NCBI GenBank assembly: GCA_019264575.1
Contig: JAHUZV010000009.1
Location: forward strand, 24,298-88,297
DNA length: 64,000 nt
Origin: Vulcanococcus sp.
GTDB lineage: Bacteria > Cyanobacteriota > Cyanobacteriia > PCC-6307 > Cyanobiaceae
Direction: 5' to 3'
Part shown: positions 13,522 to 30,172 of the stretch, piece by piece
Position numbering within the stretch: the stretch's first letter is position 1
How the letters are laid out: each line of letters opens with the position of its first letter
Program-made: the position numbers and the translations under genes
The notes under the pieces: model-generated
The model's input: only the letters and a program-made list of their open reading frames with translations
Databases searched by the model: none
Told to the model about the DNA's origin: nothing

Positions 13522-13592
13522 GGCGGTGGCCTCAAGCTGGCAGCCCCGTTCCCTGCTGCCAAGGCGTGCGTCCCACAAGGGGATGAACGTGC

Positions 13593-25056: not shown

Positions 25057-25308
25057 TCAGAGCTTGCTGGTTGGCGCCTCTCCCCCCACTTCCTGATCCA
25101 CCAGGGCATCGAGGGTGACAGCTGAGCGCACCAGCGCTTGGTAGCGCTGCACCACGCGCCGGTTGCGCTCGAGCCAGCCGGCGGGGTTGCCTTGGGCGGC
25201 GGCCAGGCTGCCGGTGTGATCGCCATTGAGCAGATCGAGTTCGCTCTGTTGGTGGATCAGGGCCACCACCAGTTCGTGGATGCGCTGGCGGCGATCGGCG
25301 TAAGACAT
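25057..25308 (-). CDS. Conserved-looking 83-residue protein, unknown function
   Basis: Not recognised. A soluble, helical protein beginning MSYADRRQRIHELVVALIHQ, with Glu/Asp/Arg-rich faces and the segment NPAGWLERNRRVVQRYQALV. There are no cysteines or membrane helices. It starts 5 bp after the AI-2E-family permease stop and ends 27 bp before the GH116 start, so it is in the same run of genes as the GRRM locus. Confidence 0.72.
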   Translation of the reverse strand: MSYADRRQRIHELVVALIHQQSELDLLNGDHTGSLAAAQGNPAGWLERNRRVVQRYQALVRSAVTLDALVDQEVGGEAPTSKL

Positions 25309-25313
25309 CAACT

Positions 25314-26357
25314 TCAGGGGGAGGGTTGTGCGCTGGTGCCCACCCAGAGGCGCACAAAGTGATAGCCCAGCGACAACACCACCGGCCCGAGAAACAGGCC
25401 TGCCACCCCTGCTTTGAGCGTGCCTCCCACCACGCCCACCAGGATCACCAGCATCGGCACCGGTAGCCCACGGGCCATCAGCAGCGGTTTGAGCAGGTGC
25501 TCCAGGAGGGTGGCGGCCAGCAGCCAGAGCGTGAGCAGCAACGCCATCAGCGGTGGCAGATGGCTCCAGGCCATCACCAGGGCTACCGCTACCACTGGCA
25601 GCGGCCCGATCTGCATCAGGCACAGGATCAGCGCCAGCAGGGTGAGCACCCCAGACCAGGGCACATCGGCAGCGATCAGCCCCAAACCGATCAACAGCGA
25701 TTGCAGGAAGGCCACGCCCACCACCCCCCGCGACACGTTGCGCACGGTGGTAGCCGTGATCAGCTGCACCGTGTCGGCATGCTCCGGCGCCAACCGATGC
25801 AGCAGCCGCCGCAGCCGCAGCAGCAATCCATCGGAGTACACCAACATCGCAGCCGCCACCACCAGGCTCACCAGCAGCCGGAGGAAGCCCAGCCCCTTGG
25901 CCAGGGTGGTTTCAAGCACCCGGGTCATCACGGTGGTGAGCGTGTCGGAGTGGCTGCGCAGCAGGCCATGCAGATCGCTGATCAAGCCGTGCCAGAGCGG
26001 CTTGATCGCTGGCCCCAGCACAGGGAGGCCCAGCAGCAGCGGTGGCGGTTGGGGCAGGGCCTGTTTGCCCTGGCGCACCAGCTCCACCAGCTCACTCACG
26101 TTGCTCAGCAGCGCCGCTGCCAGGGCGCCCACCGGGCCGATCAGCACCAGCAGTCCCACCAGCATGATCAGCCCCGCTGACCACCAGCGCCCCAGCCGCA
26201 GGTGGTGCTGCAGCCACAGCTGCAGCGGTTTGAGAATCACGGCCAGCAGTCCGGCCCACAGCACGATCTCGGCGAAGGGCTGCAGGATCAGGGCGCAGGC
26301 CATGCCCAGCCCAACCAGCACCAGCAGCCGGATCAGGGCATCGGGATTGAGCGGCAT
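25314..26357 (-). CDS. AI-2E family transporter (PerM/TqsA-like permease)
   Basis: A 347-residue polytopic membrane protein with about 7-8 hydrophobic segments. The arrangement is that of the UPF0118/AI-2E exporter family: two N-terminal hairpins, a long soluble helical stretch around residues 85-150, then C-terminal TMs with the family-typical GLPVPMLVILVGVVGGTLKAG and LFLGPVVLSLGYHFVRLWVG. The start at 26357 is one base after the grrM stop, so it is very likely co-translated with the maturase gene. The substrate is unknown; family members move AI-2, Na+/H+ or other small molecules. Confidence 0.87.
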   Translation of the reverse strand: MPLNPDALIRLLVLVGLGMACALILQPFAEIVLWAGLLAVILKPLQLWLQHHLRLGRWWSAGLIMLVGLLVLIGPVGALAAALLSNVSELVELVRQGKQALPQPPPLLLGLPVLGPAIKPLWHGLISDLHGLLRSHSDTLTTVMTRVLETTLAKGLGFLRLLVSLVVAAAMLVYSDGLLLRLRRLLHRLAPEHADTVQLITATTVRNVSRGVVGVAFLQSLLIGLGLIAADVPWSGVLTLLALILCLMQIGPLPVVAVALVMAWSHLPPLMALLLTLWLLAATLLEHLLKPLLMARGLPVPMLVILVGVVGGTLKAGVAGLFLGPVVLSLGYHFVRLWVGTSAQPSP

Positions 26358-26358
26358 C

Positions 26359-27552
26359 TCAGTTGGCGGCTGGTGGAGCGGCCTCGAAGCGATCGAGCAG
26401 CACCTGCACCGGGATCTGGGTGCGGAAGCGACAGGCGCTGGTTTCGCTGCAATCGAGGGTGCCGTGCTCCCAGAACTTGTTGCTGCCCATGCCGCCACCG
26501 CAGAGGCCGTAGTAATCACAAGTGCTCTGGCAGCGCGCCATGCCGGAGCTCACATCGCTCCAGAGCTGTTGAAAGCGGGGGCTGCGGGCCGCCTCCAGCA
26601 GGCTGGTGGTGCGGATGTTGCCCAGATTGAAGCTGCCGTAGCGCTCGCTGCTCACCGACAGCAGCTCGGGATCGAAGGTGGAGAAGTTGCCCTGCCAATC
26701 CACGCTGAGGATGGAATAGGGGCGGTTGAGTTCGTTCTGATTGAGGCGGCGGTTGCGCTGGATCAGATCGATGACCTGCTGGAACTCCCGCAGCACCAGC
26801 GGGTGCCCATCAACCTCGCTCAGCTGCCAGAAGCGCGTGAGGAACTGGCGGTAGCGCTCTTCCTGCTCACGCCCCTGCATCGAGGAACTGGTGTGCACTC
26901 CCTCTTGCTCCTCCACGTTGAAGCCCACCGAAGTGATGCCGTTATCGCGGAAGAAGCGATACATCGCCTCCGGTTGCTCCATCGCGGCGGCGGTCACCAC
27001 GGCGATCACATGGCAGGGGATGCCGTTGCGCTTGAGCGCTTCGATCCCTCGCATCGTGAGGTGATGGGAGGGGTTGCCGTTGCGAAAGCGGCGATGGGCG
27101 TCGTGGATGGCGGCCGGGCCATCCACGCTCACGCCCACCACGATGCCGTTGCGCTGGAAGCAGTCGCACCAGGCGTCGTTGATCAGCGTGCCGTTGGTTT
27201 GCACGTGCTGCTCGATCACCACGGCACCGCTGGTGAACTCCTGCACGCAGCGCTCGATGATCACCGTGGCTTCGTCGTAGTAGCTGCAGGGGAGCGTGAG
27301 CGGCTCACCGGCGTGCCACACCAGCGACAGCTGAGGCCCGCAAAAGGGGCTCTCCAGGATCCGCTGCAACAGCAGAGGCAGCAGATCCAGATCGAACACC
27401 CGACGCTTCTGGCGATCCGGCAGGTAGCAGTAATCGCAGTCGAGATTGCAGAGCGAGGTGGATTGCACCACCACTAGCCCGATCGGGCCGAACCGGCTTA
27501 GCTCGAGATCGGCAAGAGCGGCGCCGGCCGGGGAAATCTCGCCGCTGATCAC
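26359..27552 (-). CDS. grrM: GrrM-type radical SAM/SPASM cyclophane-forming peptide maturase
   Basis: A 397-residue radical SAM enzyme predicted to crosslink aromatic side chains in the adjacent glycine-rich precursor. Residues 28-45 read VVQSTSLCNLDCDYCYLP, giving the CxxxCxxC cluster (Cys35, 39, 42). SLVWHAGEPL and HVQTNGTLIN are the GGE-like and strand motifs, and VGVSVDGPAAIHD is typical of the family. The C-terminal SPASM region has Cys in ARCQSTCDYYGLCGGGMG and DCSETSACRF for auxiliary clusters. The GTG start (27552) overlaps the grrA stop (GTGA), indicating translational coupling. Identification rests on family knowledge of GRRM (glycine-rich repeat modification) plus the exact gene neighbourhood. 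Confidence 0.92.
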   Translation of the reverse strand: MISGEISPAGAALADLELSRFGPIGLVVVQSTSLCNLDCDYCYLPDRQKRRVFDLDLLPLLLQRILESPFCGPQLSLVWHAGEPLTLPCSYYDEATVIIERCVQEFTSGAVVIEQHVQTNGTLINDAWCDCFQRNGIVVGVSVDGPAAIHDAHRRFRNGNPSHHLTMRGIEALKRNGIPCHVIAVVTAAAMEQPEAMYRFFRDNGITSVGFNVEEQEGVHTSSSMQGREQEERYRQFLTRFWQLSEVDGHPLVLREFQQVIDLIQRNRRLNQNELNRPYSILSVDWQGNFSTFDPELLSVSSERYGSFNLGNIRTTSLLEAARSPRFQQLWSDVSSGMARCQSTCDYYGLCGGGMGSNKFWEHGTLDCSETSACRFRTQIPVQVLLDRFEAAPPAAN

Positions 27553-27920
27553 CAGTTGATGAAGCTGCCGGGCAGCACGTTGCCCCAGCCGCCGTTACCC
27601 CAACCGCCATTGGGCCAGCCCAGGTTCACGTTCACGCCGCCGCCGTAATAGCGGCCGCCGTTCCCCCAGCCACCGCCGTTGCGCCAACCGCCGCCATTGC
27701 CCCAGGCGCGGCCACCACCATTGCCCCAGTAGCGAGCCAGCAGCTCGCCGTTGCCAGCGCTCAGTTGAGGTTGCCAGGCGCCATCGCGCAGGGCCTGGAT
27801 GCGGCTTTCGAGTGGATTGCTCAGATCAGGCGCCTGATACACAGCTGCCTGAGCCGTTTCAGTGAACACGGCAGCAGCGGCGGTGAGGGTGAGTAGCTGC
27901 AGAAGGGAACGGGGTGCCAT
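27549..27920 (-). CDS. grrA: GrrA-type glycine-rich RiPP precursor
   Basis: A 123-residue secreted precursor peptide. A signal peptide spans residues 1-25 (LLQLLTLTAAAAVFTETAQA). A short leader (26-62, containing NPLESRIQALRDG) is followed by a Gly/Asn/Trp-rich core from about residue 63 to the end. The core holds eight aromatic-x-Asn triads: WGN at 65, 73, 85, 107 and 112, WRN at 79, WPN at 102 and FIN at 120, separated by GG or GGG. Such triads are the sites at which GrrM/OscB-type maturases form three-residue cyclophanes. There are no cysteines, so the architecture is not disulfide-based. The gene lies 39 bp after grrP and overlaps grrM. Confidence 0.93.
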   Translation of the reverse strand: MAPRSLLQLLTLTAAAAVFTETAQAAVYQAPDLSNPLESRIQALRDGAWQPQLSAGNGELLARYWGNGGGRAWGNGGGWRNGGGWGNGGRYYGGGVNVNLGWPNGGWGNGGWGNVLPGSFINW

Positions 27921-27959
27921 GGCAGTGGTGGGTGCGGTGAATTCAGACGTGCTGGAGGC

Positions 27960-28841
27960 TCAGGACAGGTTCAGCAGCGCGGCGGTGAGCAGCACGTTGG
28001 TGAAGTAGGCCTTGATCAGGTCTTGACTGAGATTCACGCTGCTGCCAGGGCCCACCCACTGGTTGATGCGCTGCAGCGCTGAGGGATCGTCGTTGATGTA
28101 GGCCTGCATCAACTTGGCGATCGCCAGGTTGCTGAGGTTGAGCAAACCGGAGTTGTTCTCGGGCACCACGCAGCCCACGGCCGAGCGGTTGTAGGGCACC
28201 GAGGGAGCCACGTTGCCGGAGGGATCCACCGCGGCGCGGTTGGCGAGCAGCCAGAGGCTGTCGCCCGCGAGGAACTGAATCTCACCGTTCTTCAGGGCTT
28301 CAAGCGCTGCGGCGGGGTTTTCAAACAGCGCCAGCTCGCCGCCGGTGACGGTCTTCTCGATCGCGTGGGCCGAGAGGCTGTTCTTCACCGCGCCGATGGT
28401 TTTGCCCTTCAGAGCAGCGGGGGTGCCGTCGTTGCCGGCCGGGGTGATCAGGCGGGTGCCGCTGAGGGCGAAGGGCAGGGAGTAGTCGACAAACATCGAG
28501 CGGCCCCAGCTGAAGCCCGCGCCGCAAGAGAGGTCGACAGCGCCGCTGGCGATGGCGGCAAGGCCTTCATTGATCGAATTCACCGGTTGCGGCACCAGCT
28601 GCACGGGCTTGCCGGTGTACTCGCTCACTTCTTTCTGGATCTCCTTGGCAAACTCCATGCCAAGGCCCATGTAGCCATTGCCCTGTTGGGTGGAGTAAGG
28701 GAGGTCGCCGTTGAGCACGACGGTGTTCAGCCTGCCGGTGCGGCTCACCCGCTCGAGCACGGTTTCGGCTTGGACCGGTTGCAGAACCCCCAGGGTGAGG
28801 CTGAGCAGAGCTCCGGTGAGTGCGGTCAGTCGAACAGCCAT
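27960..28841 (-). CDS. grrP: GrrP-type orphan periplasmic solute-binding-like protein
   Basis: A 293-residue family 3 solute-binding fold with no ABC permease or ATPase nearby. A signal peptide spans about residues 1-25 (MAVRLTALTGALLSLTLGVL to QAE). The SBP_bac_3 pattern is seen in SRTGRLNTVVLNGDLPYS, GMEFAKEIQKEVSEYTGKPV, LVPQPVNSINEGLAAIASGA and VDLSCGAGFSWGRSMFVDYS. Orphan proteins of this type are a fixed part of GRRM loci. It may bind the mature crosslinked peptide or a ligand related to its function; that is inference. The ATG at 28841 starts the signal peptide; the 86-bp gap to divergent cobL should hold the operon promoter. Confidence 0.9.
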   Translation of the reverse strand: MAVRLTALTGALLSLTLGVLQPVQAETVLERVSRTGRLNTVVLNGDLPYSTQQGNGYMGLGMEFAKEIQKEVSEYTGKPVQLVPQPVNSINEGLAAIASGAVDLSCGAGFSWGRSMFVDYSLPFALSGTRLITPAGNDGTPAALKGKTIGAVKNSLSAHAIEKTVTGGELALFENPAAALEALKNGEIQFLAGDSLWLLANRAAVDPSGNVAPSVPYNRSAVGCVVPENNSGLLNLSNLAIAKLMQAYINDDPSALQRINQWVGPGSSVNLSQDLIKAYFTNVLLTAALLNLS

Positions 28842-28927
28842 CGCGTGGGGCGCAGACTCAGACAGTTGGCCGGAGAGTAAGGCAGTTTCCGCTCCTCTGC
28901 AGAACGCCTGGCACTCACAATGGCGAG

Positions 28928-30172
28928 ATGATTGAGGTGATCGGCACCGACGCCGGCGCACCGGCCAGCCTGCCGCCGGCTCATCAAGAGCTGCTGCGCC
29001 AGGCCGCCCTGGTGGCAGCACCCCGCCGTCTGCACGCCGCCCTGCAGAGCTGGGCTGGCGATGGTGGGCCTGTGCTGATTGCCAGCGATCAGCCGGAGCC
29101 ACTGCTCGAGCAGTTGCGGGGCCTCGATGCCGGACAACCGGCGGTGGTGCTGGCCAGTGGCGATCCGCTCTGGTTTGGGATTGGGCGGCTGCTGCTGGAG
29201 GGGCTTCCGGCGGATCAGCTGCGTTTTCATCCGGCCCCCAGCTCACTCCAGCTGGCCTTCGCGCGCATCGGTCGGCCCTGGCAGGACGCCAGCTGGCTCA
29301 GCCTGCACGGCCGCGATCCAGAACCGCTCGCGGCGCGGCTGCAGCAGCGGCAAGGCGCCTTGGCGGTGCTCACCGATCCCAGCCGCGGTGGGGCTGAAAC
29401 GGTGCGCCGGTGCCTGCGGGCCGCGGGGCTCGAGCAGGCCTATTGCTTCTGGCTGTGTGAGCGCCTCGGCCACAGCGCCGAGCGCGTGCAGCGCCTGGCG
29501 CCCGAAGATCCCCTTCCCGCCGATCTCGATCCGCTGCACCTGGTGGTGCTGGTGGCCGAGCCGCCGGCGCTCCCGGAACGCCTGCCCCTGTTTGGTCTGC
29601 CAGATGGGGTGTTTCTGCAGCACCCGGATCGCCCGGGGCTGATGACCAAGCGCGAAGTGCGCATTCAGCTGCTGGCCGATCTCGATCTGCCCCAGGAGGG
29701 TGTGCTCTGGGATATCGGTGCCGGCGTGGGTTCGGTGGGGCTGGAGGCATTGCGGCTGCGGCCGGCCCTGCAGCTCTGGGCCTTGGAGCAGCGCGGCGGC
29801 TCGGCGGCCTTGATCGAGGCCAACGCGGAGCGGCTGGGCGTGAAGCCCGCGCGGGTGCTGGAGGGCCGCGCTCCCGAAGCCCTGGCTGAGCTGCCCGATC
29901 CTGATCGTGTGCTCATCGGCGGCGGCGGCCGCGATCGCTGTGCCTTGTTAGATGCCGTGCTTGAGCGGCTGCGTCCAGGCGGTGTGGTGGTGATTCCGCT
30001 CGCCACCGTGGAAGCGCTCGCCGAGCTGCGGCCGCCGCTGGAGCAGGCCGGCTTCGCCGTGGCCGTGGCTCAGCATCAGGCCTGGCGCGGGGCACCCCTG
30101 GCGGATGGCACGCGCTTGGCGCCGCTCAATCCCGTGCTGGTGCTGCGGGGCGAGCGGCCGGCTGCGGGTTGA
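28928..30172 (+). CDS. cobL: Precorrin-6Y C5,15-methyltransferase (decarboxylating), CbiE-CbiT fusion
   Basis: Methylates C5 and C15 and decarboxylates the corrin ring side chain in cobamide synthesis. The 414-residue fusion has an N-terminal CbiE-like tetrapyrrole methylase domain (about 1-205: MIEVIGTDAGAP, AVVLASGDPLWFGIGRLLL, LAFARIGRPW). The C-terminal CbiT class I methyltransferase domain (about 220-414) has GLMTKREVRIQLLADL, the SAM motif LWDIGAGVGSVGLEAL and DRVLIGGGG. The ATG at 28928 is the first in frame after a shadow stretch. The last 47 bp overlap the converging DUF192 gene. cobQ of the same pathway is at 58020. Confidence 0.94.
   Translation: MIEVIGTDAGAPASLPPAHQELLRQAALVAAPRRLHAALQSWAGDGGPVLIASDQPEPLLEQLRGLDAGQPAVVLASGDPLWFGIGRLLLEGLPADQLRFHPAPSSLQLAFARIGRPWQDASWLSLHGRDPEPLAARLQQRQGALAVLTDPSRGGAETVRRCLRAAGLEQAYCFWLCERLGHSAERVQRLAPEDPLPADLDPLHLVVLVAEPPALPERLPLFGLPDGVFLQHPDRPGLMTKREVRIQLLADLDLPQEGVLWDIGAGVGSVGLEALRLRPALQLWALEQRGGSAALIEANAERLGVKPARVLEGRAPEALAELPDPDRVLIGGGGRDRCALLDAVLERLRPGGVVVIPLATVEALAELRPPLEQAGFAVAVAQHQAWRGAPLADGTRLAPLNPVLVLRGERPAAG

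Follow-up and report, generated by a model that had tools for sequence, protein, structure and literature searches.

A complete Grr cassette in Vulcanococcus sp. and the association of its binding protein with the precursor peptide across cyanobacteria

Locus organization and gene identities

The window, by which we mean the whole stretch of 64,000 nucleotides of Vulcanococcus sp. DNA that was analysed, carries three adjoining genes on the minus strand. The grrP gene (27960-28841) codes for a secreted family 3 solute-binding-like protein of 293 amino acids counted from the ATG at 28841, grrA (27549-27920) codes for a precursor of 123 amino acids, and grrM/oscB (26359-27552) codes for a radical SAM/SPASM peptide maturase of 397 amino acids. 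The GTG start codon of grrM (27552-27550) overlaps the TGA stop codon of grrA (27551-27549) within the four bases GTGA. The gene coordinates, the strand and this overlap had been given in a preliminary description of the DNA, and all of them hold. A profile search that the same description had named as able to refute the Grr identity places all three products above the curated NCBIfam cut-offs: GrrM matches TIGR04261 with 608.5 bits (E 4e-183; cut-off 310), GrrA matches TIGR04260 with 68.9 bits (cut-off 31), and GrrP matches TIGR04262 with 312.2 bits (cut-off 190). Matches to Pfam models are consistent with a radical SAM protein (GrrM) and a family 3 binding protein (GrrP). Each protein has a single match in its own genome (2.67 Mb in 27 contigs), and the nearest genus-named relative in our scan, Vulcanococcus sp. 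Clear-D1, carries a GrrM that is 97% identical. The locus is an authentic and complete Grr cassette, of a type already catalogued, and it is predicted to yield a secreted, Gly- and Trp-rich peptide stapled by carbon-carbon rings.

One spacer base past the grrM stop codon, at 26357, lies the ATG of a gene for an AI-2E family permease (25314-26357, minus strand; PF01594, 101.4 bits for a frame run from two codons upstream of the ATG), which is probably co-transcribed with grrM in the window. A relative of this permease occurs in only 4 of 81 records that carry GrrM (the window, L003, L004 and L005), which places it outside the family-wide system; it is also present in the cassettes of genomes G292, G303 and G305. 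We rejected the permease as an exporter or other part of the system because it accompanies the cassettes of only the window's closest relatives. A consensus scan for promoters and terminators over 25250-29000 found none, with 0.3 and 1.6 expected.

Elsewhere in the window, a Glutamine-II riboswitch (13538-13592, minus strand; 39.4 bits, gathering score 33) is located directly upstream of a short ORF (about 13521 to 13420, minus strand). The ORF starts MNTLALIRAQILKAQRLHQAQLA, is about 33 amino acids long, and possibly codes for a glutamine-controlled small protein.

The GrrA precursor

Residues 1-25 of GrrA resemble a Sec signal, with a cleavage site between AQA and AV as judged by eye. They are followed by a conserved PLESRIQAL leader segment, then by a Gly/Trp/Asn-rich core that ends in FINW, with a free C-terminal Trp. 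The core carries eight aromatic-x-Asn triads, seven WxN and one FxN, at residues 65, 73, 79, 85, 102, 107, 112 and 120. Among 20,000 shuffles of residues 61-123 the mean number of such triads is 1.86 and the maximum is 7, and none reaches eight. The spacing extends to the family: Asn or Asp stands at +2 for 783 of 895 core Trp and Phe residues in 91 of 92 GrrA sequences (one of fewer than 100 amino acids was omitted), a count in which the core began at the first triad and one triad per sequence is therefore scored by construction. The last residue of the 92 sequences is Trp in 75, Arg in 8, Tyr in 7, and Phe and Leu in one each. With its Trp-rich GrrA of eight triads and its compact cassette present in one copy, the window locus is a tractable test case.

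Two of the six genomes that have GrrM and lack GrrA carry Trp-x-Asp-rich stretches adjoining GrrM instead of a Gly-rich core, and no GrrP match was found in the stretches fetched from them. The one in G162 (L102, 5422-5844, minus strand) carries a Grr-like leader and has the appearance of a variant precursor, and the one in G010 (L101, 4847-4963, minus strand) is only an open fragment of 38 residues at a contig end. Solitary GrrA-like genes, with no GrrM or GrrP within 5 kb, were observed at L098 (3188-3739, minus strand) and L099 (2769-3212, minus strand); their products are perhaps modified in trans.

The GrrM maturase

The radical SAM domain of GrrM matches PF04055 with 57.4 bits, and its SPASM region matches PF13186 with 18.8 bits, which is under the gathering score of 21.5. 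In an alignment of 41 of the 80 GrrM sequences, from which mostly near-copies were omitted, the CxxxCxxC cysteines (C16, C20 and C23) and five others (C110, C322, C326, C332 and C355), the latter candidate ligands of auxiliary clusters, are invariant in 41 of 41, with positions numbered along the aligned segment. The structure model has a pLDDT of 90.8. NCBIfam names TIGR04261 as GrrM/OscB. According to a review (PMC11002830), OscB (IPR026357) links residue i to residue i+2 through a C7(Trp)-Cbeta(Asn/Asp) or a C4(Phe)-Cbeta(Asn) bond, as established by 2D NMR after co-expression in E. coli. The preliminary description had regarded the product structure as not established, which is too strong in view of the OscB cross-links. 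On the native Grr product, its trimming, its location and the role of GrrP, we found nothing in the open-access literature.

Presence, absence and mobility of the cassette

Within the genus, 16 of 25 genomes carry a GrrM. Three of the nine GrrM-less genomes are closed (G126, G297 and G306), and in each of them the window flanks meet, with 32-34 bases between them compared with about 3.6 kb in the window. These empty sites align by blastn up to window positions 25298 (G126), 25298 (G297) and 25296 (G306) and again from 28928; together with the gene positions, this defines the missing stretch as 25299-28927. The window cassette may have been gained, or it may have been lost by G126, G297 and G306. 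The cassette occupies the same site in G298, G305, G292 and G303. Six other genomes of the genus (G291, G307, G308, G309, G311 and G313) carry a GrrM that is 47-51% identical, and in the five that were tested (all except G311) it is not located at the window's site. In the fragmented assembly G300, one contig shows an empty site, and another carries, near a piece of the flanking gene, a cassette that is 84% identical (L110 on contig C4, and contig C65). This genome is perhaps a mixed assembly, or perhaps carries a recent second copy.

We considered and set aside three possible signs of mobility. Phage carriage is not supported by any close relative, the best of five phage records being 27% identical over 85% of GrrM. 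Plasmid carriage fares no better, with a best identity of 39% to a Nostoc GrrM among the matches listed (10 of 31 plasmid records). The base composition gives no clear foreign signal, with GC contents of 0.635-0.675 in 1-kb windows over the cassette versus 0.655-0.712 in the flanks. In three plasmid loci (Nostoc, one Phaeobacter and Streptomyces), no binding protein is listed beside grrM in a gene table that is incomplete. On plasmid pADI95-16a of Streptomyces sp. ADI95-16, a grrM-annotated gene (L121, 4001-5095, plus strand) lies among genes of lantibiotic and thiopeptide type, and the region is possibly a hybrid RiPP cluster.

Association of GrrP with GrrA

Linkage was scored in 291 genomes of the class, where genes within 5 kb on a contig were counted as near. 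Matches below 190 bits for GrrP (except in G005) or below 31 bits for GrrA were omitted, as was a GrrA piece in G069 that belongs to its neighbour. Of 41 GrrA matches, 30 have both GrrM and GrrP nearby, six have GrrP only, three have GrrM only and two have neither, which places GrrP near 36 of the 41. In one genome with GrrA near GrrM and no nearby GrrP (G259), a GrrP is found on another contig. Conversely, 13 of 41 GrrM matches have no nearby GrrA, and none of the 13 has a nearby GrrP, with the caveat that several lie on short contigs whose neighbouring genes may be cut off.

The same pattern is observed for whole genomes. GrrM scores over its cut-off in 36 of the 291, and GrrP does so in 31 of 32 genomes with GrrA, the 32nd (G005) having only short partial matches to GrrP and GrrM. 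By comparison, GrrP is over its cut-off in none of the six genomes that have GrrM and lack GrrA; unlinked GrrP-like proteins in G010 (182 bits) and G159 (153 bits) fall under the cut-off of 190 and were counted as GrrP-less. The chance of such a split among the 36 GrrM genomes is 5e-7 if genomes are treated as independent, which they are not. Five genomes (G262, G065, G231, G266 and G271) carry a grrP-grrA pair apart from GrrM, the pair in G271 being 1.7 kb from a contig end.

Among 81 records (80 fetched loci and the window, some of the loci cut by contig ends), GrrM is present in 81, GrrA in 76 and GrrP in 70. None of the five records without GrrA has GrrP, and GrrA occurs without GrrP in six of 76 (L026, L027, L033, L034, L064 and L073). 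GrrP is encoded on the opposite strand in six of the 81 records, and the link between the two genes is therefore more than membership in a single operon. Across the 291 cyanobacterial genomes, GrrP goes with the precursor GrrA rather than with the enzyme GrrM. We think it about as likely as not that GrrP acts in the periplasm as the partner of exported, stapled GrrA.

The GrrP fold and its binding pocket

GrrP reaches the gathering score of SBP_bac_3 and has the family 3 solute-binding fold, which is a GltI-like amino acid-binding fold. In an alignment of 58 of the 77 listed GrrP sequences, with mostly near-copies omitted, the pocket residues R95 and D175 are present in 54 and 50 sequences, respectively, and C87 and C205 are present in all 58. 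R95 is absent from four sequences and D175 from eight, where Gly takes its place in the seven members of a marine Synechococcus-like group and Glu in the eighth sequence. These losses suggest that no single ligand fits all GrrP proteins.

Both the fold and the retained Arg and Asp are what would be expected if GrrP were an ordinary amino acid-binding protein, with some free amino acid to sense or scavenge and no more than a regulatory or accompanying part beside the peptide. GrrP siblings also exist outside Grr loci: of the 291 genomes, 21 pass 190 bits for TIGR04262 and have neither GrrA nor GrrM over the cut-off. Eight proteins were opened among the matches to the GrrP model away from Grr genes (L111-L118), and since these orphans pass the cut-off, the model alone over-calls GrrP. 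We rejected an invariant Trp of GrrP, in a T-W-x-R motif, as a mark specific to GrrA because the motif is carried by all eight siblings; a Trp common to siblings outside Grr loci gives no sign of adaptation to GrrA. An ordinary binder is harder to reconcile with a GrrP that tracks the precursor gene, with the replacement of the pocket Asp in the marine group and with the gene content of the locus, where a search with models found no ABC permease for GrrP in the cassette or among seven neighbouring genes (a distant permease is possible). We regard this explanation as a serious one, of somewhat less than even probability.

Tandem loci and co-inheritance

Nine of the 80 loci have the tandem layout P-A-P-A-M, and seven further loci have two GrrA and at most one GrrP. 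The preliminary description had said that such loci have exactly these three genes, which is true of the commonest layout but is not a rule, given the tandem and incomplete loci among relatives. Within tandem loci, the difference between the two GrrP proteins (P1 and P2) is 56-57%, and that between the leaders of the two precursors (A1 and A2) is 58-63%. P1 and A1 are both nearest to the single pair of L055 or L029, and P2 and A2 to that of L060 or L050, in the seven of nine tandem loci that could be scored after rows with ambiguous residues were removed (L012 and L013 dropped out); agreement is poorer for lower-ranked neighbours. The GrrP tree splits P1 from P2 with support of 100/100, other rows not being counted. 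The window GrrP belongs to a deep subclade of this tree, 16 of 69 rows that split from the other 53 with support of 100/100. The tandem loci hold two grrP-grrA pairs, each inherited as a unit, beside one maturase gene.

Distance correlations over 69 complete triples are 0.906 for GrrP with GrrA and 0.834 for GrrM with GrrA (partial correlations 0.714 and 0.410). This measure fails as a signal specific to GrrP and GrrA on the 55 single loci, where the partial correlations are 0.430 and 0.508 and GrrP is no closer to GrrA than GrrM is. Because the two genes are mostly adjacent, their co-duplication and correlated distances could reflect linkage only. GrrP might then be a hitch-hiker kept beside GrrA by adjacency, with the functional link absent, and the lack of GrrP from six of the GrrA records, three of them at contig ends (L026, L033 and L064), would be in line with this. 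We find it unlikely in view of the pairs that persist without GrrM in five genomes and of the retention of GrrP in nearly every genome with GrrA.

A proposed role for GrrP

The reading that we prefer, in which GrrP is the periplasmic partner of GrrA, can be set out as follows. GrrA would be synthesised with a Sec signal, and before export the radical SAM cluster of GrrM would join C7 of Trp (or C4 of Phe) to the beta carbon of Asn at +2, to give up to eight three-residue cyclophanes on GrrA and a mass change of about -16.1 Da. The calculated monoisotopic mass of residues 26-123 is 10251.91 when unmodified and 10235.78 with all eight triads closed, each closure taking away 2.016 Da. The Sec machinery would export the stapled, otherwise Gly-flexible GrrA, with residues 1-25 removed. 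GrrP, which has its own secretion signal, would be the cognate partner in the periplasm, where it would most likely hold or deliver the mature peptide or one residue, for example the free C-terminal aromatic, rather than feed an ABC importer. We consider the maturation and secretion of a GrrM-stapled, Sec-exported GrrA to be likely, and we infer within it the order of modification and export and the number of modified triads. The gene identities, motifs and co-inheritance behind this proposal were computed here, and the cross-link is taken from the OscB literature (PMC11002830).

Glycine-rich secreted proteins are common, and the native product is here predicted from the genes. That GrrA is such a protein and not a RiPP, with the radical SAM enzyme acting on some other substrate, is nevertheless very improbable in light of the +2 spacing rule, the overlap of grrA and grrM, and the OscB precedent (PMC11002830).

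More tentatively, GrrP and GrrA might be the two parts of one secreted unit. An amino acid-receptor fold would in that case have become a periplasmic carrier or receptor dedicated to a peptide stapled by cyclophanes, perhaps gripping the free C-terminal aromatic carboxylate of that peptide, and the maturase would provide a shared service. If true, a solute-binding protein would here serve a RiPP as its cognate partner. Grr cassettes occur across the cyanobacteria, yet in the open-access literature we came upon no function of their peptide. The pattern of GrrP with GrrA offers a testable lead, namely to study GrrP together with stapled GrrA. What goes beyond prior knowledge is this pairing, seen also in the tandem loci, the mostly retained pocket Arg and Asp of a GltI-like GrrP and the empty sites in three closed genomes.

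Comparison with known systems

The window cassette shares with the catalogued GrrP-GrrA-GrrM systems and OscA/OscB triceptides matches over the cut-off to all three models, the gene order and the triads, and differs from them in its Trp-rich core of seven WxN triads and one FxN triad. AmcB (NF041718), YhhB, FxsB and XyeB, which are cyclophane-forming by model name, have the radical SAM/SPASM superfamily in common with GrrM. However, GrrM scores below the cut-offs of their models, with 296.6 bits for AmcB (cut-off 425), 148.4 for YhhB (445), 114.1 for FxsB (370) and 58.7 for XyeB (450). The closest comparison for GrrP is with the glutamate/aspartate-binding protein GltI/DEBP (2ia4, 2vha), whose pocket segment CGSTTNNVER aligns with CGAGFSWGR in the window protein, and GrrP is encoded in a cassette in which no transporter partner is seen.
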